Below, piece by piece: positions 16,588 through 28,592 of a DNA stretch of 35,278 bases. The notes beneath the pieces were generated by a model, which did no database searches, had not been told where the DNA came from, and worked only from the letters and a program-made list of their open reading frames with translations. The position numbers and the translations under genes are program-made. The DNA is taken from contig BQIW01000045.1 of the NCBI GenBank assembly GCA_021604105.1, positions 1 through 35,278 of the forward strand. Reading direction: 5' to 3'. Each line of letters starts with the position of its first letter. Position 1 is the stretch's first letter. This stretch comes from Nitrospirales bacterium (GTDB lineage Bacteria > Nitrospirota > Nitrospiria > Nitrospirales > UBA8639).

Positions 16588-17250
16588 CTAACTAGATGGG
16601 GACATATGGCGGATGATTTTTCCTTCCACCATATATACAACCAATTCCGCCACATTCGTTGCATGATCGGCAATCCGTTCAAGGTATTTCGAGATAAATG
16701 ACAGCCGGATCGCACGCGAAATGGTTTGAGGATTTTCTATCATAAAAGACAATAGTTCACGAAAAATTTGTTCATTCAGTTCATCGACAAAATCATCCTC
16801 GTTGAGGACCTGTCTGGCAAGAACCGAATCCCCCCGCACAAACGCATCTAGGGATTCTCCCACCATTTTGATAGCACGCTCGGCCATCCGGGGAATATCG
16901 ATATACGGTTTCAATTGGGGTTCGGCATGCAACTCGAGGGCACGCTCACAAATATTTTCGGCCAAATCGCTCATGCGCTCTAATTCAGTGGAAATTTTCA
17001 TGGCGGTCGTGACAAACCGAAGGTCTTTCGCCGCCGGTTGGTGAAGCGCCAACAATTCGAGACAGAGTTCGTCGATGACCACATCCATCGTATTCACCTG
17101 ATGATCATTCTGAATGACCTGAATGGCTATGTCATCATCACGATCCACAAGTGCGGTAAGCGCTTGACGAATTTGCCCTTCAACGAGGGCTCCCATGCGC
17201 AAAATTCTCTGCCTGAGGTCCGCCAACGAATCATCAAAATGTCGCTTCAT
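16588..17250 (-). CDS. phoU: Phosphate-signalling regulator PhoU
   Basis: A 220-residue two-bundle helical protein that restrains the Pst transporter and PhoR when phosphate is plentiful. Both halves carry the PhoU metal-site repeat: ELERMSDLAENICERAL near residue 95 and YLERIADHATNVAELVVYMVEG near residue 200. The N-terminus MKRHFDDSLADLRQRILRMGALVE and AAKDLRFVTTAMKI are typical. AAGGA lies 6 nt before the ATG. It is the last gene of the pstS-pstC-pstA-pstB-phoU run, 29 nt after pstB. The next 225 nt downstream contain no gene. Confidence 0.97.
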   Translation of the reverse strand: MKRHFDDSLADLRQRILRMGALVEGQIRQALTALVDRDDDIAIQVIQNDHQVNTMDVVIDELCLELLALHQPAAKDLRFVTTAMKISTELERMSDLAENICERALELHAEPQLKPYIDIPRMAERAIKMVGESLDAFVRGDSVLARQVLNEDDFVDELNEQIFRELLSFMIENPQTISRAIRLSFISKYLERIADHATNVAELVVYMVEGKIIRHMSPSS

Positions 17251-17279
17251 CGTGATCCTTTATTCTGGTCTACCGGAAA

Positions 17280-18188
17280 TCAGCCGAACCGCCCTGTCAC
17301 ATAATCTTCCGTTCGGGGATCGCCCGGATTGGTGAAAATTTTCTTGGTGTCATCGAATTCGATTAATTCCCCTAACAAGAAAAATCCCGTCAAATCAGAG
17401 ACTCGGGCAGCCTGTTGCATGTTATGTGTCACGATGACAACCGTGAGCCGCTCTTTCAACGTATGAAGAAGCTCTTCGATCCTCCCGGTAGAGATAGGAT
17501 CCAGTGCGGAACAGGGTTCATCCATCAACAATACTTCCGGATTCACCGCAAGTGCCCTGGCAATACAGAGTCGTTGTTGTTGACCTCCCGACAAGCCCAA
17601 GGCGTTGGCATGCAGCCGATCTTTGACCTCATCCCACAGGCCTGCTCCCTGAAGACTTGTTTCCACGATTTCGTCAAGGATGGCACGTTTGCGGATCTTC
17701 TGCAATTGCGGACCATAGGCCACGTTCTGCCAGACGGTTTTCGGAAACGGATTCACTTTCTGAAAGACCATACCAACCCGAGTTCGAAGATCGGTCGCAT
17801 CGACCTCAGGCCGATAAATATTTTCCTCATCCAGGAGAATAGTTCCTTCGACCCTGGCACCATCAACCAGATCGTTGAGACGATTGAGGCAGCGTAAGAG
17901 GGTGGATTTTCCACAACCCGAAGGCCCGATAAATGCCGTCACTTTATGAGCGGGAACGGTCATATTCACACATTTGAGAGCCTGAACATTTCCATAGTAA
18001 AAGTTCATATCTTGAATGACGATTTTCGCAGGTCCATCCGTTGATGAATGTTGAGCCGTTTCGGATTCGACAAATGTCTTTTTCATGGGATCCGTCTGCA
18101 TGGTTTCAACCACCAGCCTCTGAGATTGTGCCTCGGATGTCTTGACCACAGACATAGATGGTTTCAAAAATTTCTGTTCGATTTCCAT
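17280..18188 (-). CDS. pstB: Phosphate ABC transporter ATP-binding protein
   Basis: Energises phosphate import in the PstSCAB complex. Walker [10 protein letters not shown] (residues 88-96), Q-loop [12 protein letters not shown] signature LSGGQQQR (199-206), Walker B LLMDEP (220-225) and the switch histidine VTHNMQQA are all present. RCLNRLNDL and [13 protein letters not shown] are specific to PstB. At 302 residues it is about 40-50 longer than typical; the extra N-terminus is polar and low in motifs. The ATG at 18188 is kept because GAGGT precedes it. Internal ATGs (for instance the MKKTF start near residue 35) remain possible. It starts 13 nt after the pstA stop. Confidence 0.97.
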
Positions 18189-18201
18189 AATTGTACCTCA
18201 T

Positions 18202-19833
18202 TTAGACCGAAGCACCAGCATACCGCTTTCGCATTCGTGTACGGAGGGCAATCGCCGTCATGTTCAAAAGAAGGACGACCAGAACCAGGACAAGGGTCGT
18301 GACGTAGACCATGGGTTTTGCCGCTTCCACATTAGGGGATTGAAATCCTACATCATAGATATGAAATCCCAAATGCATAAATTTTCGGTCAAGATGCAGA
18401 AAAGGAAACTGACCATCAACCGGCAGGGCCGGAGCAAGTTTGACTACGCCGGTCAACATCAGTGGCGCCACCTCCCCCGTAGCCCGGGATACCGCGAGAA
18501 TCAACCCGGTTAATATTCCCGGCATAGCGCAAGGCAGCACAACCCGCATGAGCGATTCAAATTTTGTGGCGCCCAACCCCAACGATCCTTCACGATATTC
18601 TCTGGGAACGGCCGACAAGCCTTCCTCCGTCGCCACAATGACCACCGGGACGGTCATGAGGGCCAACGTGAGCGAAGCCCATAACATTCCCCCTGTCCCA
18701 AAGGTCGGATTCGGCAATGAGGCGGAAAAAAGTAATTGATCAATCGTCCCTCCCACTGCATACACAAAAAACCCCAGGCCGAACACACCAAAGACAATTG
18801 ACGGAACCCCTGCAAGATTATTCACCGCAATCCGGATCATTCGAGTCAGCAGGCCCTGCCTGGCATATTCCTTTAAATACACGGCAGCCAGGACCCCAAA
18901 CGGCACCACCACCACACTCATCACCAAGACCATCATGACCGTACCAAAAATTGCGGGAAAGATCCCACCTTCGGTATTCGCTTCCCGTGGCTCTTCGGTT
19001 AAGACGTTCCAGAAGTTTTCCACATACATCAACATTTTGTCCGGCACAGTCATGGCATTCGGACGCCACGCTTTAACAAGGCCGCCAACCGGAAATGTTT
19101 TTTCCTCGCCGGTGACATCTACGAGGGTGACACGATACCGGTTCAGTCGCTCATACAACCCCACCAAGCGTTCGATCTGCTCCTGATAGGCCGCTTCCCG
19201 TTGTTGAATCTCCCGTTCAAGAATGTCGGCTGAATCCTGAGGTATTTCCCCTTTTGATTCCAAAACCTTCAGATTCAGGCGAGCGCGTTCCATGTCAGCG
19301 TTTATAGCGCCAATCACATCGTGTTCAATATGATGAATCTCCCGGTGAATGGACTCGGTTTGCTCAAGAAAGGGATACCAGTCGCTCCATGCGATGTCCC
19401 GGCCCTCAGCCAGAGGTGTGTCCCCATCCCATACTGCCGTGACCCAGCCATAAAAATTTCCCCATTCCCGTCGTTCAAATGCAATCACGTCCTTGGGCCA
19501 GGACCGTTGGGCTATGTCGGTTTCATCAACCCACCGGAAATCCAGTCCGTACACATCCCGGTTGCCCACCTTCAGTTGAATGCGAGACTGCCCATCGGGA
19601 AAATCTGCGCTGATGGTTTCTGGAATACGCTGGGTATCCACGATTTCCCCGAGCACCCGGGTGTCATCCTTGAGCGTCAACTGCACAAGATCCTTCGGCC
19701 AAAAATACCCCATGCCATTAATAAAAATAAGCGCCAGGAGGCCGCCGATCAGGAGCAGAGAACACGCTAAGGCACCCCCTGCCAACCAGATAAATAATGT
19801 GCCGGATGCAAAAAACCGTTGAAAAAATTTCAT
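18202..19833 (-). CDS. pstA: Phosphate ABC transporter permease PstA, large form
   Basis: One of two membrane permeases of the Pst system. It has 543 residues against about 290 for the short form. The first membrane helix (about 15-40) is followed by a roughly 240-residue extracytoplasmic segment with beta-rich parts (TLKDDTRVLGEIV, IQLKVGNRDVYGLDF) and a charged, probably coiled-coil helix (about 165-230). The permease core with several membrane helices follows, carrying the cytoplasmic EAA loop EEGLSAVPREYREGSLGLGA. Long PstA forms of this kind are known in Pseudomonas and Vibrio, so this is not an artefact. It begins 11 nt after pstC, with only a weak ribosome binding site, implying translational coupling. 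Confidence 0.94.
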   Translation of the reverse strand: MKFFQRFFASGTLFIWLAGGALACSLLLIGGLLALIFINGMGYFWPKDLVQLTLKDDTRVLGEIVDTQRIPETISADFPDGQSRIQLKVGNRDVYGLDFRWVDETDIAQRSWPKDVIAFERREWGNFYGWVTAVWDGDTPLAEGRDIAWSDWYPFLEQTESIHREIHHIEHDVIGAINADMERARLNLKVLESKGEIPQDSADILEREIQQREAAYQEQIERLVGLYERLNRYRVTLVDVTGEEKTFPVGGLVKAWRPNAMTVPDKMLMYVENFWNVLTEEPREANTEGGIFPAIFGTVMMVLVMSVVVVPFGVLAAVYLKEYARQGLLTRMIRIAVNNLAGVPSIVFGVFGLGFFVYAVGGTIDQLLFSASLPNPTFGTGGMLWASLTLALMTVPVVIVATEEGLSAVPREYREGSLGLGATKFESLMRVVLPCAMPGILTGLILAVSRATGEVAPLMLTGVVKLAPALPVDGQFPFLHLDRKFMHLGFHIYDVGFQSPNVEAAKPMVYVTTLVLVLVVLLLNMTAIALRTRMRKRYAGASV

Positions 19834-19844
19834 GGCCGTTCGAC

Positions 19845-22145
19845 TTAAAACTGAGAATATTTTTGGCGGAGCCGTTGCCGGACGATTTCGGCAATCGTAT
19901 TAATCGTAAACGTGAAGCCAAACAAAATCAGACCGGACAGGAACAACACACGATACAGGGTCCCGCCATGAGGAGCTTCTGGCATTTCCACTGCAATGTT
20001 GGCCGAGAGCGTACGAAATCCATTGAACATACTCCAATCCATGATCGGGGTATTTCCGGTGGCCATCAGCACAATCATCGTTTCGCCTATCGCACGCCCA
20101 AATCCGATCATCAATGCCGAGAAGATTCCCGGACTGGCCGAAATGAGGACCAACCGGGTCAAGGTCTGCCAACGCGTCGCCCCCAGAGCCAGGGATCCGG
20201 CGACAAGTTGCCGGGGAACATTGGCAATGGCATCTTCAGCAATACTGAATATAATCGGAATCACCGCAAACCCCATGGCAAAGCTAATGACAATGGCATT
20301 ACGTTGATCATAGGTTAACCCTAAATTCTGCGCCAACCACTGTTTGAAATTTCCTCCGAACAACCAGCCTTCAATCGCATGATTGGCCAGCAAACAGCCA
20401 CCCACGGTGAGAACAATGGCGATCATCATGACCAATAAATCAAATCCATACACATCCAGGCGTCTCACCCGAATGGGGAGAAATTGCCAGGCGAGACAAC
20501 ACGCCGCGATCACCAGAGGCAGGAATCCCACGATGGCGACCACCGCGGGAAAAATTTTCTCCAAAAGAGGAGCAAACCAAAGGCCCGCGAGAAAACCCAA
20601 TACGACCGACGGCAGGGCCGCCATCAATTCCAATGAGGGCTTCACAACCGCCCTGAGGTGAGGATGCATGAACATCGCGGTATAAATGGCTCCCATGACC
20701 GCAAGAGGTATGGCCAACACCATGGCATACAACGTCCCCTTTAACGTCCCAAACATGAGTGGGATGAGACCCAATTTCGGCTCAAACTCATCCGATCCGC
20801 TGGAGGATTGCCAAATCATCTCCGGACGGTCATAGCCTTCATAGGTTACTGGAAAAAATAAGGATTGAAAGGTCACCTCCGGATGAGGATTATCAATAGC
20901 ATAGGTCTGGAGCGTGCCATCTTCCTCCAACCACACCATGCCATCGGCTTTAGGAGCATAGCGTAGCGATTCGATGGCCTTGCCCGTCCCAGGAATTTCT
21001 AAAATCGTTTCTCCTGTCGTGGAGTGATGCAGCAACACGGTTCCCTCTTCGTCTGCCGTGAGAAACCCCTTATCCCGTTGGGACACGGATAGACTAGTCA
21101 CCGCACGGGCATGAGAGGTGAACGTATGGACTTTTCTCAGGATTTTCCCGGACGGCCCGGACTGATCAGCTGAGAACCCCCACGTACTCACGCTACCGGA
21201 CCTAGTGCCGGCCACCAGCGTTCGTTCGCCTAACACATATGAGAGAGCAGTCACGCTATCCCCCGTCGCACCAACAGGAACGGATTGAGGCATGGCATCA
21301 AATCCCTGCCGTCCCCATTCCCATACCAGGAGATGGCCATCGTTCGTCCCGGCCACCAATCGTTTTCCCGCACTATCCAAGGCCAAAGTCCTCAAAAGAG
21401 CCTTCGGTGGAAGAACCAGTCCATTGCTGGTAACAACGACTTCATCAGAAAAAGAAAATTCCCCCGGTTCTTCAATCCTGGTCACCCAAAGCTCCCCGCT
21501 TCCGGTGAGGGCTACAATGGTTTGAAATTCATCCCGTCGAGTGACATGCGCATGGAGGATAATCCGTGTTCCGTCAGGAACCACCCGCACCGGATCGTTG
21601 ACATTCACACTCGGGAGAATGGTTCGCCGGTTCCCTTGGAAATCCGAGCGATACAATATCTTGACCGGATAGACGAGTCCCTGATCGGTCCCGACGCTAA
21701 GGGTATGGCCTTTTAACCCGACACGCACCACAGAGGTCGGCTCACCTTCGATTGCCAACTCCCCTCCCGCCTCAGGCATGGGCGTGTCATTCGGTAGGGA
21801 AAAAAACTTGAGTTGCTTCCCTTCCAAAATAAACGGCACTTCCCGATATTCATCTATACCCACCATCATGTGAGTCCCTTCGGACACTTGAGTCCCGGGA
21901 AGTGACATGGGCAGAGTCAGTTCAGGAGAGACAGTCGCGGGTTGAAACAGAGGCATCACTTCCCACACCAGATACACAAAAATTCCAAGGATACTGAAAA
22001 TCGTCGCAAAGCCTCCCGCTCCAACGATATACTTGGCCGCAGAGTCAAAAAAGTGACGAATCCGCCTTCGAGTACCGGTACGGGAAACGCCGGCCCGCAA
22101 TTGTCTGTTAGATTCCAAAGAGGAGGAGGAAGATACGGATGGCAT
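19845..22145 (-). CDS. pstC: Phosphate ABC transporter permease PstC, large form with WD40-like periplasmic domain
   Basis: The partner permease of PstA. From ATG 22145 it has 766 residues, about twice the short form. After a basic N-terminus and one membrane helix (about residues 40-62) comes a region to about 450 with repeats ending in a G-x-L/V-x-x-W pattern, for example AGTNDGHLLVWEW, AGTRSGSVSTWGF and TADEEGTVLLHHS. That pattern suggests a WD40-like beta-propeller outside the membrane. The permease core follows, with the EAA loop EDAIANVPRQLVAGSLALGA. A TTG at 22208 in the same frame is an alternative start; I prefer ATG because the TTG falls at the end of a hairpin (22207-22241) and its ribosome binding site would be sequestered. 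ATG itself has no clear ribosome binding site. Confidence 0.92.
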   Translation of the reverse strand: MPSVSSSSSLESNRQLRAGVSRTGTRRRIRHFFDSAAKYIVGAGGFATIFSILGIFVYLVWEVMPLFQPATVSPELTLPMSLPGTQVSEGTHMMVGIDEYREVPFILEGKQLKFFSLPNDTPMPEAGGELAIEGEPTSVVRVGLKGHTLSVGTDQGLVYPVKILYRSDFQGNRRTILPSVNVNDPVRVVPDGTRIILHAHVTRRDEFQTIVALTGSGELWVTRIEEPGEFSFSDEVVVTSNGLVLPPKALLRTLALDSAGKRLVAGTNDGHLLVWEWGRQGFDAMPQSVPVGATGDSVTALSYVLGERTLVAGTRSGSVSTWGFSADQSGPSGKILRKVHTFTSHARAVTSLSVSQRDKGFLTADEEGTVLLHHSTTGETILEIPGTGKAIESLRYAPKADGMVWLEEDGTLQTYAIDNPHPEVTFQSLFFPVTYEGYDRPEMIWQSSSGSDEFEPKLGLIPLMFGTLKGTLYAMVLAIPLAVMGAIYTAMFMHPHLRAVVKPSLELMAALPSVVLGFLAGLWFAPLLEKIFPAVVAIVGFLPLVIAACCLAWQFLPIRVRRLDVYGFDLLVMMIAIVLTVGGCLLANHAIEGWLFGGNFKQWLAQNLGLTYDQRNAIVISFAMGFAVIPIIFSIAEDAIANVPRQLVAGSLALGATRWQTLTRLVLISASPGIFSALMIGFGRAIGETMIVLMATGNTPIMDWSMFNGFRTLSANIAVEMPEAPHGGTLYRVLFLSGLILFGFTFTINTIAEIVRQRLRQKYSQF

Positions 22146-22206
22146 TATACGTGGTCGTCGGGAAGGAGAAATGAGAAAACGAGCTGCTAATGATATCAGA
22201 ACACCC

Positions 22207-22241
22207 AACCGCTCTCCAAAAGATTTCTCTGGGAGGCGGTT
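22207..22241 (-). promoter_or_regulatory. Stable hairpin between pstS and pstC
   Basis: AACCGC-T-CTCC pairs with GGAG-GCGGTT, ten base pairs with one bulged base and a 14-nt loop. No U-tract follows, so it is unlikely to be a full terminator. Position in the gap after pstS suggests mRNA stabilisation or partial attenuation. Confidence 0.6.
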
Positions 22242-22262: not shown

Positions 22263-23273
22263 CTATTTGAAATGCTTCGACTGTTTCCCAATGATCTTTT
22301 CCGAGATCGGGAAATAGCCATCTTTAATGACGACCTTCTGTCCTTCACTGCTATACACATATTTCAAAAACTCTCGAACAATCGGCGACAACGGTTGATT
22401 GGGAGCTTTGTTCACGTACACAAACAGATACCGTGCCAAAGGGTACTTCCCGCTGGTGGAATGTTCATAGGTTGGCTCCACAAAAGGTTCCCCTGCCTTC
22501 ATGGAAAGAGGAAGCGCATGGACACTGGAGGTACGATATCCGATACCGCTATATCCGATCCCTGCCTGATCTTCAGTCACCCCTTGCACGACAGAGGCCG
22601 AACCGGGCTGTTCCTTTACTTCATCTTTAAAATCACCATTTTCCAGCACCGCTTCTTTGAAAAACCCGTAGGTCCCTGACGCCGAATTCCGCCCATAAAT
22701 ACTAATCGGCATATCCGCGAACATTCCGGTTAAACCCAATTGTCCCCAACTGGTGAGGTTTTCCTTATATCCCTGCTGCCTGGTCTTGGAAAACACCGCG
22801 TCGACTTGCTGAATCGTCATCCCTTGAATGGGATTGTCCTTATTGACATAGACCGCCAACGCATCTACCGCAACGGGAAAGGGGGTAGGTTTATAACCGA
22901 ACTTCGACTCAAAAGCATCGATTTCTTTCCCCTTCATCTTACGAGACATCGGCCCCAATTGAGCCGTTCCTTCAATGAGGGCAGGGGGGGCAGTACTGGA
23001 TCCCTTTCCCTCGATTTGAATTTTGACATTCGGGTATTGCTTCCGGAATCCTTCAGCCCACAACGTCATAAGATTGTTCAGGGTATCCGACCCAATACTA
23101 TTGAGGTTCCCGGAGACCCCACTTACCTTGGCATAATTCACCCAATTAGGGTCTTCCATTTCGTCCTGGGCCAAAACCGGAGAACCTCCAAGGATCGCGG
23201 CCCCAAAGCCCATAAATACTCCTATTCCCAAGCCCAACACCCACATTTGCCTTCGTTTCTGACTGTGTTTCAT
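22263..23273 (-). CDS. pstS: Phosphate-binding periplasmic protein PstS
   Basis: The periplasmic receptor that delivers phosphate to PstCA. From ATG 23273 it has 336 residues. A signal peptide ([16 protein letters not shown] to a predicted cut after VLA near residue 36) is followed by the ligand-site motifs of this family: [18 protein letters not shown] (T/S of the phosphate loop), [37 protein letters not shown] and a [16 protein letters not shown] loop. The ATG is preferred over the adjoining TTG at 23276; GGAGG lies 8 nt upstream. The strongest Pho-type box (23327-23355) and a TACACT hexamer at 23301 precede it. It heads the pst operon. Confidence 0.96.
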
Positions 23274-23326
23274 CAATCGTGCCTCCTCATGTAAGTAAAT
23301 AGTGTAGGTCCAACAGGTTTCTTCTA

Positions 23327-23355
23327 TGTAACGGCAATGTTACGAACGTGTTAAA
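23327..23355 (-). promoter_or_regulatory. Putative Pho box of the pst operon, three 11-bp-spaced units
   Basis: Minus-strand 7-mers TTTAACA, CGTAACA and CGTTACA start exactly 11 bp apart, the clearest example in the window. A TACACT -10-like hexamer (23301-23306) begins 20 nt after the box. The stop codon of the preceding gene (23351-23353) lies inside the box. Confidence 0.7.
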
Positions 23356-23662
23356 TACCCATCCACCGATCCCCCGATTTTGACCTGGTATACCCCGTCA
23401 GAACATCCTCCTCGTTTCCGGTTGACACCGAATGGATGGCCCGGACTTCAAATTGAAACTCCTTTTGGCACAAAATTACCGTCCCTTCTTGCAGACATTC
23501 CCCAAGGATGGAAAATAAATGTCCCCACCGCATCCATGGCAGATGTTCCAAAAGGTCTTCTATTGTCACCCCCGGACTGGCAGAAATAACCGCTAACACC
23601 TGATCATGATCATTCTGCTCGACATCAACCGGACGCATCCATTCTGTGCTTTGTGTTCCCAT
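23351..23662 (-). CDS. Small protein of unknown function preceding pstS
   Basis: A 103-residue cytoplasmic protein I do not recognise. The start at ATG 23662 has a good ribosome binding site (AGGAGAG). The central part, VLAVISASPGVTIEDLLEHLPWMRWGHLFSILGECLQEGTVILCQKEFQFEVRAI, has a helix-turn-helix-and-wing-like pattern (helix, PGV turn, LLEHLPW, then a hydrophobic helix and a hairpin GTVILCQKEFQFEV), so a winged-helix DNA-binding or adaptor fold is possible. It has its own three-unit box at 23767-23795 and ends inside the pstS box, so its transcript would feed the pst operon. I infer a phosphate-related regulatory role; nothing catalytic is visible. Confidence 0.68.
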   Translation of the reverse strand: MGTQSTEWMRPVDVEQNDHDQVLAVISASPGVTIEDLLEHLPWMRWGHLFSILGECLQEGTVILCQKEFQFEVRAIHSVSTGNEEDVLTGYTRSKSGDRWMGI

Positions 23663-23766
23663 GGGCCTCTCCTGTCATTGTCGTCTCAGGTTGAGACAGT
23701 TCCAGAGCTCGGCAGTCTGATTATTCAACCCCGCAATCGTATTCTAGCGAGTGCCTATTGCACCTC

Positions 23767-23795
23767 TGTGAGGGCCGGGTTACAAACGTGTAACG
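23767..23795 (-). promoter_or_regulatory. Putative Pho box ahead of the 103-residue gene
   Basis: Minus-strand 7-mers CGTTACA, TGTAACC and CCTCACA start 11 bp apart. A TAGAAT hexamer (23741-23746) begins 20 nt after the box, the same spacing as at pstS. Confidence 0.55.
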
Positions 23796-24226: not shown

Positions 24227-26119
24227 TCATAAGGTTTCATTCGGTAACGTATGGGCCAACCGCAGTTCCCTAAGCATGGCCCGCTTTTTGGCTTGGTGCG
24301 CCTGCATACGCCGAAGAATACCGTCCAGAAAACATACCGCGTTGACTACATAGGGCCCTTTATTGAGCATGACACACTCAGCTCGATGTCCCATCGCCGC
24401 ATCCGTGATCTCAGCGCGGGACGGGATCCCTTCTTTGGCAAGGTTTTCCAACACTTGGGTGGCCCAAATCACCGGAACATGAGCGGCCTCACATATCCAA
24501 AGGATCTCTTCTTGAACTTCCGCGAGACGTTCAAATCCGCATTCAACGGCCAGATCGCCGCGGGCGATCATCACCCCGCAATACGGAGCCCGCATGGCCG
24601 CTAGCAACATGTCCGGTAAGTTCTCGAAACCACGACGCGTTTCGATTTTCAATACGATAGCAGGCTGCCGACTCCCGAAGCGACCTAGATGCTCCTGGAG
24701 CATTTCCACATCTCTGACCGAATTGGCAAAAGATAACTCCACAATATCGGCATGCCTGGCCACAAAGGACAAATCCGCCACGTCCTTGGAGGTCATAGCC
24801 GACAGGTGAAGGTCACTGTCGGGGAGATTGATGCCCTTATCGGCTCGCAACTTCTCAGTCCGCAGGCGTGGGTAAGTTATTCGGACAATAACCCGCGTAT
24901 CCTCGACCTTCTCGATAACGCCCCCGATCCTACCGTCGTCAAACCAGATTGATTCCCCAGGTCGGACGTTCTTGAGAACCTCTGGAATCGTGCAACCGAT
25001 CACCGCGGGGGCCAAATCCTTCCCCCCACTGTCGTAGGTTTCCGGATGGCCAGTCTGAAGGTCGCGGCTCAAAATGAGTACATCGCCTTCCCGCAAAGAG
25101 ATGGCGTTCTCACGGCGTGGAAGCTTGCCCACGGAGGCTTTACAGTCCTTTCGATTCGCTAGCCTGGGCTCGTGATGCAGAACCGTGCCCGGGACAACAT
25201 AAGTCGTCTTGGTTGCCTCCACCCAGCACCCATTACCGGTCACATTAACGACTGTAAAGATCCTTCTAGAGTTCCGAGCATCAATGAGTTTCACCCGCTC
25301 GCCAGAGCGCAGGCCGGTCAGCCAAGTAGCCGGAACAGGCAGAGAAGCGTCTGCCGGCAAGGGTGGCGGGGAAGGAGAAGACTCCGCAGTCAGCCACACC
25401 CGCGCAGGGTCGATGACACGCCCATACACATCGCGGCGGGGACGAATCCTGACCACAGCCTGACCCGGCTCAATCGGCCCAGTGCGCAACTTCGGTCCAG
25501 CCAGGTCCATGACGATCCGGCAGGATCGTCCCAAAGAGTGTTTGGCTCGCCTCAGATGCTCGATCATCCGAAACCACGTCGGGGCGTCGTCATGGGCGCA
25601 ATTGATGCGCATGCAATCCATGCCTTGCTGAAGCAGATTGTGAACGAGAGTGTAATCATTCGCCGCCTCGGCGGGCATGGTGACCATAATCCGGACTCCA
25701 CGCTCGGGAGTGGCCTGGCCCAAAAGACCCTCGGTGTGCTCGGAAAGTAGCTGATCCCCATGCCGGAAATCGACCACTGCCGCCTCTTGCGATCTCACCT
25801 GCCAAGAACATCCCCTCAGGCAATGCAGAACTTCAAGAACTGCATCGACGGTGGCTAGAACATGCGACTCGGCCCGCCCGAGGGATGAAAGTCCCAACGC
25901 GGCTAACTGCAACTGCAACGGTCGGAGGTCCCGGCGCCGGAGGGTAAGATAATGCAGTAGGTTTCGAGCGCTCCCTCGATAATTGACATGTACCTTTTCG
26001 AGACGTGCCAGAGACCTGGCCGCCTCAGTGACCATATCCGTACGGATGGCGAGGAGTTCCTTGAGGACCCTATCAATATGCCCATTTCCCGAGTAAGCGC
26101 CGTCCGTGGTATTTCCCAT
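24227..26119 (-). CDS. Atypical long pyruvate kinase
   Basis: A 630-residue protein from ATG 26119. Pyruvate kinase motifs appear in the second part: RIMVTMPAEAANDYTLVHNLLQQGMDCMRINCAHD, RIVMDLAGPKLRTG, a long B domain, IWFDDGRIGGVI, INLPDSDLHLSAMTSKDV, VLKIETRRGFENL and GVMIARGDLAVECGFERL, which is the active-site signature. PVIWATQVLENLAKEGIPSRAEITDAA closes the barrel. It lacks the C-terminal regulatory domain and instead carries about 135 extra N-terminal residues, helical and rich in Leu and Arg, with no motif I recognise. The in-frame GTG at 26215 could extend it. The usual exchange of phosphoenolpyruvate and ADP is likely, though the activity and direction are inferred. It sits between phoR and the pst genes and a two-unit box (26406-26423) precedes it. 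Confidence 0.86.
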   Translation of the reverse strand: MGNTTDGAYSGNGHIDRVLKELLAIRTDMVTEAARSLARLEKVHVNYRGSARNLLHYLTLRRRDLRPLQLQLAALGLSSLGRAESHVLATVDAVLEVLHCLRGCSWQVRSQEAAVVDFRHGDQLLSEHTEGLLGQATPERGVRIMVTMPAEAANDYTLVHNLLQQGMDCMRINCAHDDAPTWFRMIEHLRRAKHSLGRSCRIVMDLAGPKLRTGPIEPGQAVVRIRPRRDVYGRVIDPARVWLTAESSPSPPPLPADASLPVPATWLTGLRSGERVKLIDARNSRRIFTVVNVTGNGCWVEATKTTYVVPGTVLHHEPRLANRKDCKASVGKLPRRENAISLREGDVLILSRDLQTGHPETYDSGGKDLAPAVIGCTIPEVLKNVRPGESIWFDDGRIGGVIEKVEDTRVIVRITYPRLRTEKLRADKGINLPDSDLHLSAMTSKDVADLSFVARHADIVELSFANSVRDVEMLQEHLGRFGSRQPAIVLKIETRRGFENLPDMLLAAMRAPYCGVMIARGDLAVECGFERLAEVQEEILWICEAAHVPVIWATQVLENLAKEGIPSRAEITDAAMGHRAECVMLNKGPYVVNAVCFLDGILRRMQAHQAKKRAMLRELRLAHTLPNETL

Positions 26120-26405
26120 TGTGCTTTTCCAAATATGGAAAACGATGCCTCGCCACAGCCAAGGCAGGTGAGACAAGCATGTTCTAATTTTAACCGGCGG
26201 CCTGGCGGAAATCACGGCTCATGCCGCTTCACGAACTTCCAACTCACCAAAAACCCCGGCATTCAAAATTTTTACTACCTGCTGCCCTAACCTAATCTTC
26301 TTTTCGCCGTCCAATACCCAGCCAGCGCCACCCACCGAATTCTGTGCCTAGCGAAGCTTTCAACAGAATCCTAGCCCAGAGACTATTTCGCCGCCATGGA
26401 TTTTA

Positions 26406-26423
26406 CGTTACACGTGTGTGACA
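26406..26423 (-). promoter_or_regulatory. Possible Pho box, two 11-bp-spaced units, ahead of pyruvate kinase
   Basis: Minus-strand 7-mers TGTCACA and TGTAACG start 11 bp apart; no third unit is convincing. A TAGGAT hexamer is at 26368-26373. The site is almost 290 nt from the pyruvate kinase ATG and may instead be a leftover of a duplicated pst promoter. Confidence 0.4.
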
Positions 26424-26487
26424 TTTTTAGAAATTTTTGGCAAAGAACAACCAAATGAAGGAGTTACGGAAGAAGAAAATTGAAATA

Positions 26488-27870
26488 CTATAAAAGGTTG
26501 GTTGAGAGATTGGGCGGGGAAACGGGCAAAATCACCTCCACGGTGGTACCTTTTCCCAATTCACTCTGTATGCGAAGTTTGCCATCGAGCAATTGGAGCA
26601 AATGCTTGACGATGGAGAGCCCAAGGCCCGTCCCACCTTCTGCACGGGACCGCGCTCGATCCACCCGATAAAATCGTTCGGTGATCCTTGGAAGATCCGT
26701 CGAAGGAATACCCTGGCCTGAATCCGTGACCTGCAGTGAGATCCGCTCATCTCCAAAAGATAGGGCTTGAAACGATATGGTGCCACCGGAAGACGTAAAT
26801 TTAATGGCATTATCCACGAGATTCACCAGAATCTGAATCAACCGATCTCTATCAACCCAGGCACTGAACTCGACGCCGATCGTATTGGAAATCTGCAGAT
26901 GTTTTTTCGACAGTTGATGTTGAAACATCTCACAGACATCCTGCGCCACTTCACACAACGGTACCGATTCACAACGCAGGACGACTTTTCCCGATTCAAT
27001 TTCCGAGAGGCTTCGTAGGTCTTCTACTAACCGACTGAGCCGCACCGCATGTTGGTGGGCAACCTGCACAAATTTCCGATTGTTCGGAGTTTCCAAGGAC
27101 GGTTCATCCACAAGCGTTTCCAAATATCCGACAATAGCCGTCAGCGGGGTGCGCAGTTCATGGGAGACGTTCTCAACAAACTCGGTCCTTACCTGTTCCA
27201 ATTTGCGAAGTTGGGTGACGTCGTGCAACACCAGCACACTTCCCTTTTTCTGATTGGACAAGGGAAAAGGGAGCGCATAAACCTCTAACACCATGGAAAC
27301 GGGAGGATGCAATTCAACCTCAGCTTGTCGCTGCTCATGCCACGCCAATTCCTGACAGCCTTCAACCAAATTTGCCAGCTCCTGATTTCTGATGATTTCC
27401 CACAGGGATCGTCCTTGAATCGCCTGGGCATCCAATCCCAATATTCGCTGGGCACTGGAATTGGTAAACAACACCTTCCCCTTGGGATCGAAGGCCACCA
27501 CTCCTTCCACCAAATTTTCCATGATGGCGATAATTTTCGTACGTTCCTCCTCCAGACTGGTCATCCGCGTCTTCACATTTTCCACAAGGCGCTGGATGTG
27601 GCCTCCCAATGCATCGGGTTCCAACACACGGGAAGCTCTCGCCCCATCAATCCCGCCGAGCAGTTCAAGTTGACGAATACCTGTCATAAAATCTTCATGG
27701 TTTTCCCGTGTCTGAGCCCGGATGTCCCGGGTCAGCAACACCGCTACACCAACCAGACCAGCCCCGGATACCACCACCACCCAGAATGGCCATTCCCAGG
27801 CGACCGCCACACCCACGCCGATCATGGCCGCTACCATCCAGCCCACAAGAATGAGCGAAGGATTAGGCAT
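26488..27870 (-). CDS. phoR: Phosphate-regulon sensor histidine kinase PhoR
   Basis: A 460-residue membrane kinase, partner of PhoB. Two adjoining membrane helices (about 7-27 and 30-47) with almost no periplasmic loop, then a linker and a PAS domain (about 112-215; IMENLVEGVVAFDPKGKVLFTNSSAQRILG), a HisKA domain with the phosphorylated His237 in VSHELRTPLTAIVGYLETL, and a HATPase domain with NLVDNAIKFT, DSGQGIP, ERFYRVD and GGTGLGLSIVKHL. The absence of a sensor loop fits PhoR proteins that read phosphate through Pst and PhoU. It begins 29 nt after phoB ends; the ATG has GGGA upstream. No 11-bp box is seen ahead of phoB-phoR. Confidence 0.95.
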   Translation of the reverse strand: MPNPSLILVGWMVAAMIGVGVAVAWEWPFWVVVVSGAGLVGVAVLLTRDIRAQTRENHEDFMTGIRQLELLGGIDGARASRVLEPDALGGHIQRLVENVKTRMTSLEEERTKIIAIMENLVEGVVAFDPKGKVLFTNSSAQRILGLDAQAIQGRSLWEIIRNQELANLVEGCQELAWHEQRQAEVELHPPVSMVLEVYALPFPLSNQKKGSVLVLHDVTQLRKLEQVRTEFVENVSHELRTPLTAIVGYLETLVDEPSLETPNNRKFVQVAHQHAVRLSRLVEDLRSLSEIESGKVVLRCESVPLCEVAQDVCEMFQHQLSKKHLQISNTIGVEFSAWVDRDRLIQILVNLVDNAIKFTSSGGTISFQALSFGDERISLQVTDSGQGIPSTDLPRITERFYRVDRARSRAEGGTGLGLSIVKHLLQLLDGKLRIQSELGKGTTVEVILPVSPPNLSTNLL

Positions 27871-27899
27871 TGATGAAAGTCCCTTTCATCAGACTCACC

Positions 27900-28592
27900 T
27901 CAGACCGCTCCCGACTCAAAACGATAGCCCACTCCTTTGACCGTCACAATTCGCGTGTATTCCCTTCCTAACTTTTCCCGGAGCCGTCGAATGTGCACAT
28001 CCACCGTCCGCGATTCAATATCCACGGCATTGGAATAGCTCCATACCGTTTCCAATATTTGCTCTCGGCTCAATACCCGGCCATTCGCCCGCATCAACGC
28101 ACAGAGCAGATCGAACTCCTTGACGGTTAACTCCACCACGGTTCCTTCCACTGTCACCTGGTGTTTCCCTTCATCCACCTGGAGTGCTCCAACCCGTTTG
28201 ATTAACGGCATGTCCAACCCTTGACCCCGCCGCAACACGGCTTTCACTCTGGCGATAAGTTCCCTCGGGCTAAAGGGTTTCACCATATAGTCATCGGCCC
28301 CCATCTCCAGCCCCACAATACGGTCCACCTCCTCGGCCTTCGCCGTCAGCATGATAATGGCGATCGAAGATGTTTTCGGGTCTTTTCTCAACTTCCGGCA
28401 GACCTCTAAACCATCCACTCCCGGTAACATCAGATCCAGGACCATTAGATCCGGAGTACGTTCCCTGGCCACTTGCAAAGCCGTTTCCCCATCACGCGCC
28501 TCCAGGCACTTAAGCCCTTCCTTTTCCAAATGATACTTGACTAACTCCACCAGATCCTTTTCATCATCAACGACTAACACGGTTGTAGCCAT
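27900..28592 (-). CDS. phoB: Phosphate-regulon response regulator PhoB
   Basis: A 230-residue OmpR-family regulator. The receiver shows the acidic pair VVDDEKD (about residues 8-14), the phospho-acceptor Asp53 in LMVLDLMLPGVDGLEV, the switch threonine in MLTAKAE and Lys105 in MVKPFSPREL. The C-terminal winged helix runs from VELTVKEFDLLCALMRANGRVLSREQIL through the recognition helix SRTVDVHIRRLREKLG to TVKGVGYRFE. AAGGAG precedes the ATG. With phoR immediately downstream, it is the natural candidate to bind the 11-bp repeat boxes in this window. Confidence 0.96.
   Translation of the reverse strand: MATTVLVVDDEKDLVELVKYHLEKEGLKCLEARDGETALQVARERTPDLMVLDLMLPGVDGLEVCRKLRKDPKTSSIAIIMLTAKAEEVDRIVGLEMGADDYMVKPFSPRELIARVKAVLRRGQGLDMPLIKRVGALQVDEGKHQVTVEGTVVELTVKEFDLLCALMRANGRVLSREQILETVWSYSNAVDIESRTVDVHIRRLREKLGREYTRIVTVKGVGYRFESGAV

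Follow-up and report, generated by a model that had tools for sequence, protein, structure and literature searches.

A mini winged-helix gene ahead of pstS, between two predicted Pho-type promoters: a candidate accessory regulator in Nitrospira relatives

The Pho system is a textbook regulon. PHO boxes are described as 11-nt direct repeats (PMC4415409), and in Escherichia coli such boxes lie ahead of pstS (PMC4415409, PMC10294691; excerpts of both articles). The locus described here has in common with the E. coli PhoB/pst system the 11-nt-repeat boxes ahead of pstS, and it carries phoB-type and phoR-type genes with the pst genes, but its repeats are of the type TTAACA/GTAACA rather than CTGTCAT, and a gene separates its two predicted Pho promoters, which lie in tandem. 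A further point of comparison is PtrA of marine Synechococcus, a CRP-family second-tier regulator under PhoBR control, which gives rise to a cascade (PMC11098088, in excerpt). As far as that excerpt goes, the ptrA gene is itself Pho-controlled, as the one described here is predicted to be from its promoter sequence; however, PtrA belongs to the CRP family, whereas the small protein, of only 103 residues and with no Pfam match to a CRP-family architecture, is predicted to be a bare mini winged helix encoded within the pst unit. In the main text of the Nitrospira marina genome paper, as far as available, the word "pst" is absent and "phosphate" occurs only in unrelated uses (PMC8115632). No description of the small gene was found in the open-access literature searched.

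The analysed stretch of DNA (hereafter, the window) comprises 35,278 nucleotides of contig BQIW01000045.1 from a Nitrospirales bacterium (assembly GCA_021604105.1). Its genes of interest all lie on the minus strand, in the order phoB-type, phoR-type, pyruvate kinase gene, small gene, pstS, pstC, pstA, pstB and phoU (Table 1). The genus of this bacterium we take to be a marine-type Nitrospira lineage. A first-pass annotation, made from the letters of the window, had pointed to a 103-residue gene with a strong ribosome-binding site, its own box upstream and a stop codon that falls within the pstS box, in the first position of the pst transcription unit. The open reading frame is present and begins with ATG, and an AGGAG motif precedes it; its stop codon, TAA (23353-23351), lies within repeat unit 1 of the pstS box, TAACACGTTCGTAACATTGCCGTTACA. 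The upstream box (P1) is an exact match to TNACA-N5-GTAAC-N7-TNACA, and the equal spacing claimed for the two boxes is seen when counting from the third 11-nt unit. As far as the sequence can tell, the small gene is also the first in a P1-driven pst transcription unit, no terminator having been found in a sequence scan between it and pstS. Rfam gave no match anywhere in the window.

The two regulatory genes upstream are probably Pho-type, judging by best match and place, with scores below the equivalog cut-offs: the PhoB-type protein reaches 263.7 bits with TIGR02154 (cut-off 296.2), and the PhoR-type protein 303.5 with TIGR02966 (cut-off 334.2) and 364.4 with NF046044 (cut-off 400). The permeases are unusually long (PstC, 787 aa, 19845-22208; PstA, 543 aa, 18202-19833; both on the minus strand); the permease models cover only approximately residues 556-779 of PstC and 275-535 of PstA, leaving large extra domains, of which that of PstC resembles, by eye, beta-propeller repeats.

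Table 1. Features of the pst locus and its surroundings, in window coordinates
Feature	Position	Strand	Remarks
pstC, pstA, pstB, phoU	16588..22208	-	PstA, PstB and PhoU above cut-off; PstC just below (193.1 vs 196.45 bits)
pstS	22263..23273	-	TIGR02136 above cut-off; ATG start at 23273
P2 (pstS) -10-like hexamer TACACT	23301..23306	-	20 nt after unit 3
P2 (pstS) box, units 1-3, TAACA-N5-GTAAC-N7-TTACA	23327..23353	-	Small-gene stop codon falls in unit 1; GAAACC at 23321-23316 may be a weaker fourth unit
Small mini winged-helix gene	23351..23662	-	103 aa; ATG start; core at about residues 20-76; variable tail
Ribosome-binding site AGGAG	23669..23673	-	6 nt before ATG; read by eye
P1 -10-like hexamer TAGAAT	23741..23746	-	20 nt after unit 3
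P1 box, units 1-3, TTACA-N5-GTAAC-N7-TCACA	23767..23793	-	GCAATA at 23761-23756 may be a weaker fourth unit
Pyruvate kinase gene	24227 to ~26119	-	NF011314 type, 825.7 bits (cut-off 642)
Decayed copy of P1 box and front part of small gene	26129..26475	-	Immediately precedes the pyruvate kinase gene; remnant of the box, GTCACACACGTGTAAC, at 26422-26407
Upstream regulatory genes, phoR-type and phoB-type	26488..28592	-	Best or near-best Pho models, both below equivalog cut-offs

Both P1 and P2 display the feature tested for, an 11-nt direct-repeat box with a -10 hexamer at constant spacing, and are accordingly classed here as putative Pho-type promoters, with PhoB binding predicted from promoter anatomy. 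In the 4.9-Mb assembly, they are the only two exact matches to the box expression; 3 further matches carry one mismatch, and the reversed control, with up to one mismatch, gives 2. The two boxes are present in all 21 pst loci of the 20 genomes of the genus (G005 has two pst loci, and in G001 the boxes are split over two contigs), and TANNNT stands at the fixed offset behind P1 in 21/21 and behind P2 in 20/21 loci, the exception being CATAAT in one of the G005 loci (G005b). Elsewhere in the family, outside the genus, the regular expression matched both boxes in G020, G023, G022, G217 and G203, the pstS-near box alone in G157 and G113, and neither box in G209. A scan based on the sigma-70 consensus was rejected; it missed both P1 and P2, and its match counts fell below those of shuffled sequences.

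The combined pattern TWACR-N5-GTAAC-N32-TANNNT gives 3, 3, 3, 3 and 2 matches in G000 (the window genome), G010, G018, G014 and G008, respectively, where the reversed control gives 0, 1, 0, 2 and 0; in each of these five genomes, the matches include P1 and P2. The third match in the window genome, where the control gave 0, lies ahead of a second PstS-type gene. Among loci of other genera, the pattern occurs 19 times in 9 pst-bearing loci and is absent from 13 loci without pst, as it is from the shuffles. Two of the 9 loci (L135 and L146) come from genomes which had already been used in shaping the pattern, so that only the seven loci of genus g10, with 15 matches (none in L123), represent an independent check.

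This third match in the window genome (L159, G000:C53 near 12516) is a full Pho-type promoter pattern, and the PstS-type gene behind it scores 195 bits with TIGR02136 (cut-off 206.6); it adjoins an ArsR-type gene and a third PstS-type gene on the other strand, a layout which recurs in G014 (L160). Full patterns in near-identical sequence were also found in G018 (L157, G018:C1:3675804) and G010 (L158, G010:C1:1656719); among the genes scanned at L157, no recognised phosphate gene lies beside the match.

The suggestion that the small protein is winged-helix-like is borne out by the predicted structure of its core. The core model (window residues 10-79 together with four relatives; pLDDT 87.3, pTM 0.73) has the secondary-structure order HHHEE, corresponding to the helix-helix-helix-strand-wing-strand topology of winged helices; of five core models, with pLDDT of 87, 74, 54, 48 and 48, only the best is confident. 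The full-length model was poor (pLDDT 44) and was set aside for the core model, from which a dimerisation helix is absent. In the VIA-align comparison, the core aligned with LmrR (Z 11.5, rmsd 1.4, 69 aligned), Rpc34 (Z 11.3), YodB (Z 10.8) and MarR (Z 10.6), and 573 of the 998 aligned PDB chains reached Z ≥ 8. Foldseek also placed Rpc34 on top, with a best E-value of 3.5e-3 and no match to the core model at E ≤ 0.001. The modelled core is a winged helix, a commonly matched fold, and such matches show fold rather than function.

In line with its earlier description as unrecognised, the window protein lacks a usable match to Pfam or NCBIfam models (the best being Utp12 at 0.28). The winged-helix fold of the core is common to repressors of the PadR/MarR/BlaI type (LmrR, MarR, MecI); unlike these, the window protein has no Pfam or NCBIfam match to MarR, ArsR or PadR family profiles at E ≤ 10, and its core model shows no dimerisation helix. 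Searches of PDB sequences with both alignments returned chance matches only. A profile-profile comparison (hhalign) with A4, a mini winged-helix family of Nitrospirales, gave a probability of 98.2 and an E-value of 5.8e-14, and the A4 profile retrieves the window gene at 1.1e-12. Members of A4 are 67-94 aa long and carry the motif LTWNQVF, the W-x-x-x-F core of which is common to the window protein. The window protein is a distant member of this unnamed mini winged-helix family, which is expanded in Nitrospirales. Genomes of family f3 contain up to nine copies in mixed settings, the window genome has one, and most genomes of its genus have a single, pst-bound copy. Pfam and NCBIfam cover this family poorly: TFA2_Winged_2 is matched by 6 of 19 A4 members, weakly (best 7.7e-4), and HTH_24, DeoR and others in single members. 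Although Rpc34 is the Foldseek top match and these 6 relatives recall TFIIE-beta, the window protein itself matches neither model, and the likeness is likely to reflect general winged-helix similarity.

The small gene or a relative was detected in 24 of 40 relatives by protein search and, by profile search, in 18 of the 20 genomes of the genus (15 intact and 3 broken copies). The synteny with pstS, proposed as a check on the gene, is conserved across the genus (18/18 genomes carrying it) and in two further genera; a related protein occupies the same place in G020 and G023. The G005 draft contains two pst loci (L017 and L028), each with its own small gene; one of its PstS proteins groups outside the genus on the tree, which may reflect contamination or transfer.

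The intact proteins fall into two clades: those of clade A, to which the window protein belongs, are 98-124 aa long and have a variable tail whose frame is free, and those of clade B, at 79-83 aa, stop after the wing. Ten columns are invariant across the 15 proteins, including W43, W46, G47, F50 and E59. For the core (residues 20-76), NG86 dN/dS ranges from 0 to 0.40, mostly 0.05-0.3, over 51 within-clade pairs (36 in clade A and 15 in clade B), and the PstS values for the same genomes are approximately 0.05-0.19 where computable; in the N-terminal stretch and the tail, pN is close to pS. The core of approximately 57 residues is under purifying selection, and the tail is nearly neutral. By this pattern of conservation, the small open reading frame is a real gene.

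Frequent frameshifts, which the first-pass annotation had named as a sign against a real gene, are found in part. The G009 copy is broken by a stop codon and a frameshift, that of G018 by an internal deletion in a complete, single-contig genome, and that of G019 by a frameshift of one base within a run of Gs, which may be an assembly error; together with the absence of the gene from G006 and G015, where no reading frame is left between P1 and P2, this amounts to 3 of 18 copies broken and 2 of 20 genomes without the gene. On the PstS tree, the losses are scattered and the broken state requires 3 changes. Given the selection on the core, the broken copies are best read as repeated loss of a real accessory gene, and the small gene is not essential to pst control. 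The gap between P1 and P2 is 63-74 nt in G015 and G006 versus 324-399 nt in the intact copies of the genus, and three g4 genomes likewise keep P1 and P2, with a gap of 66-91 nt. The persistence of both promoters where the gene has been lost indicates that P1 is of use independently of the gene, which is accessory.

Relatives of the small gene have a second Pho-linked setting. In genus g10 of family f3, a PsiE-type gene followed by a mini winged-helix gene stands beside pstS-pstC-pstA in 6/6 full loci (L120, L121, L122, L123, L125 and L126), and a seventh locus, on a short contig (L141), contains the PsiE and small genes. The three g10 PsiE proteins tested all score above the Pfam cut-off. In L120, L121, L122 and L141, psiE is preceded on its own strand by a match to the promoter pattern, the nearest matching box points the other way in L125 and L126, and L123 has no full match. 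These loci were picked for the presence of the relative, so that the psiE-pst link holds for them and not for all g10 genomes. That the pst-linked (f1) and the psiE-linked (f3 g10) relatives share an origin is at most a possibility, the family tree giving one clade for each and a weak deep order. In genus g7, the relatives (67-75 aa) lie beside Wzz-like, AAA-TPR and phosphohistidine phosphatase genes in the one locus scanned (L134), with no phosphate link seen there; g7 is counted among the 13 loci without pst in the pattern comparison.

Among the genomes of the genus examined, the pyruvate kinase gene separates phoR from the small gene only in the window genome and G016; in the remaining ten of the twelve clade-A genomes, phoR and the small gene adjoin each other. 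The decayed second copy ahead of the pyruvate kinase gene, also present in G016 (L033), is 67.7% identical over 310 bp to the G009 copy (E 8.5e-19). The pyruvate kinase reading frame, as listed, opens with 32 codons that are mostly this remnant read in frame, and the true start is probably the ATG at 26119. The arrangement suggests that a duplication placed pyruvate kinase behind a P1-like box, through which it has possibly been drawn into the Pho regulon.

With moderate confidence, we propose that the small protein serves the Pho/pst response as an accessory regulator induced by PhoB. When phosphate is limiting, the PhoB-type regulator of the locus would activate P1 and P2 through their near-identical 11-nt-repeat boxes, and transcripts from P1 would read through the small gene into pstSCAB-phoU, so that the small protein would be made first and only under starvation. 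Its core of approximately 60 residues, a predicted winged helix reduced to three helices and a wing of two strands, with weakly constrained flanking ends, would then act as a second-tier modulator by contacting either promoter DNA or a protein partner, for which PhoB, PhoR, PhoU and RNA polymerase are candidates; its role would be accessory, the tandem promoters persisting without it. As to DNA binding, which had been put forward as possible, the fold speaks fairly for it, but the window protein itself gives weak grounds, its helix 3 and wing being slightly acidic. Helix 3 and wing together have a net charge of -1 or -2 in the nine intact proteins of clade A (core pI 4.6-5.4) and 0 to +3 in the six of clade B, which keeps FRREG in helix 3, and in 19 distant relatives it ranges from -1 to +3, 15 being positive. 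With this acidic face, proteins of the window's clade are at least as likely to contact a protein partner as to bind DNA sequence-specifically.

The same evidence bears on a classical autoregulator, a winged-helix dimer bound near P1 or P2 and repressing or activating pst by feedback. Its fold is closest to regulators of the PadR/MarR/MecI type, the gene heads a unit that its product could control, and clade B has FRREG and the higher charge; yet the basic residues are gone from clade A, the core model lacks a dimerisation helix, both promoters remain where the gene is lost, and the P1 leader alignment, inspected by eye only, reveals no operator common to 12 loci, which together make this reading unlikely, if still worth serious consideration. 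An inverted repeat, GTCTCA-N3-TGAGAC, lies between the P1 -10 hexamer and the ATG in G000 and G010; as a leader RNA or operator it was dropped, being untraceable by eye through the 12-locus alignment. Decidedly unlikely, in our estimate, is that the reading frame is mainly filler between tandem pst promoters serving, for example, graded or interfering transcription, with the small gene a passenger being lost. The genomes that keep P1 and P2 with short gaps (G006, G015 and the three g4 genomes), the three broken copies and the free reading frame of the tail all fit such a view, but the core is under purifying selection in both clades, G020 and G023 carry a related protein at the same place, and a relative occurs with psiE in another Pho-linked unit.

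Control of pstS through translation of the reading frame, as a regulatory leader peptide or in a structured leader RNA, is suggested by the position of the frame ahead of pstS and of its stop codon inside the pstS box. We regard it as very improbable, considering that Rfam gives no match, that beyond the frame pstS is served by a promoter and a ribosome-binding site of its own, that the core has a conserved fold and stand-alone protein relatives elsewhere and that the clade B frames stop well before the box. The frameshifts in G009, G018 and G019 might even point to a spurious reading frame, but this is hardly credible in view of conservation, selection and fold, and is in the main refuted by the core dN/dS. 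A bolder version of the accessory-regulator proposal, in which the mini winged helix, specific to Nitrospirales, would not repress sequence-specifically but would be bound to PhoB or RNA polymerase at Pho promoters in the manner of Rpc34/TFIIE, with its own Pho promoter in the pst unit and coupled to psiE in a second family, is improbable and offered as speculation.

Nitrospira relatives are nitrite oxidisers and drive nitrification in marine and wastewater settings. In these bacteria, a conserved extra player without a family model heads the pst unit, and the marine-type relatives probably make it as an extra helper regulator under phosphate shortage, on the reading of promoters and genes given here. 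The pattern TWACR-N5-GTAAC-N32-TANNNT offers a route to charting the Pho regulon in Nitrospirales. If the small protein modulates PhoB output, an unannotated family would gain a testable role, and, if true, this would show how phosphate control is tuned in nitrifying bacteria.
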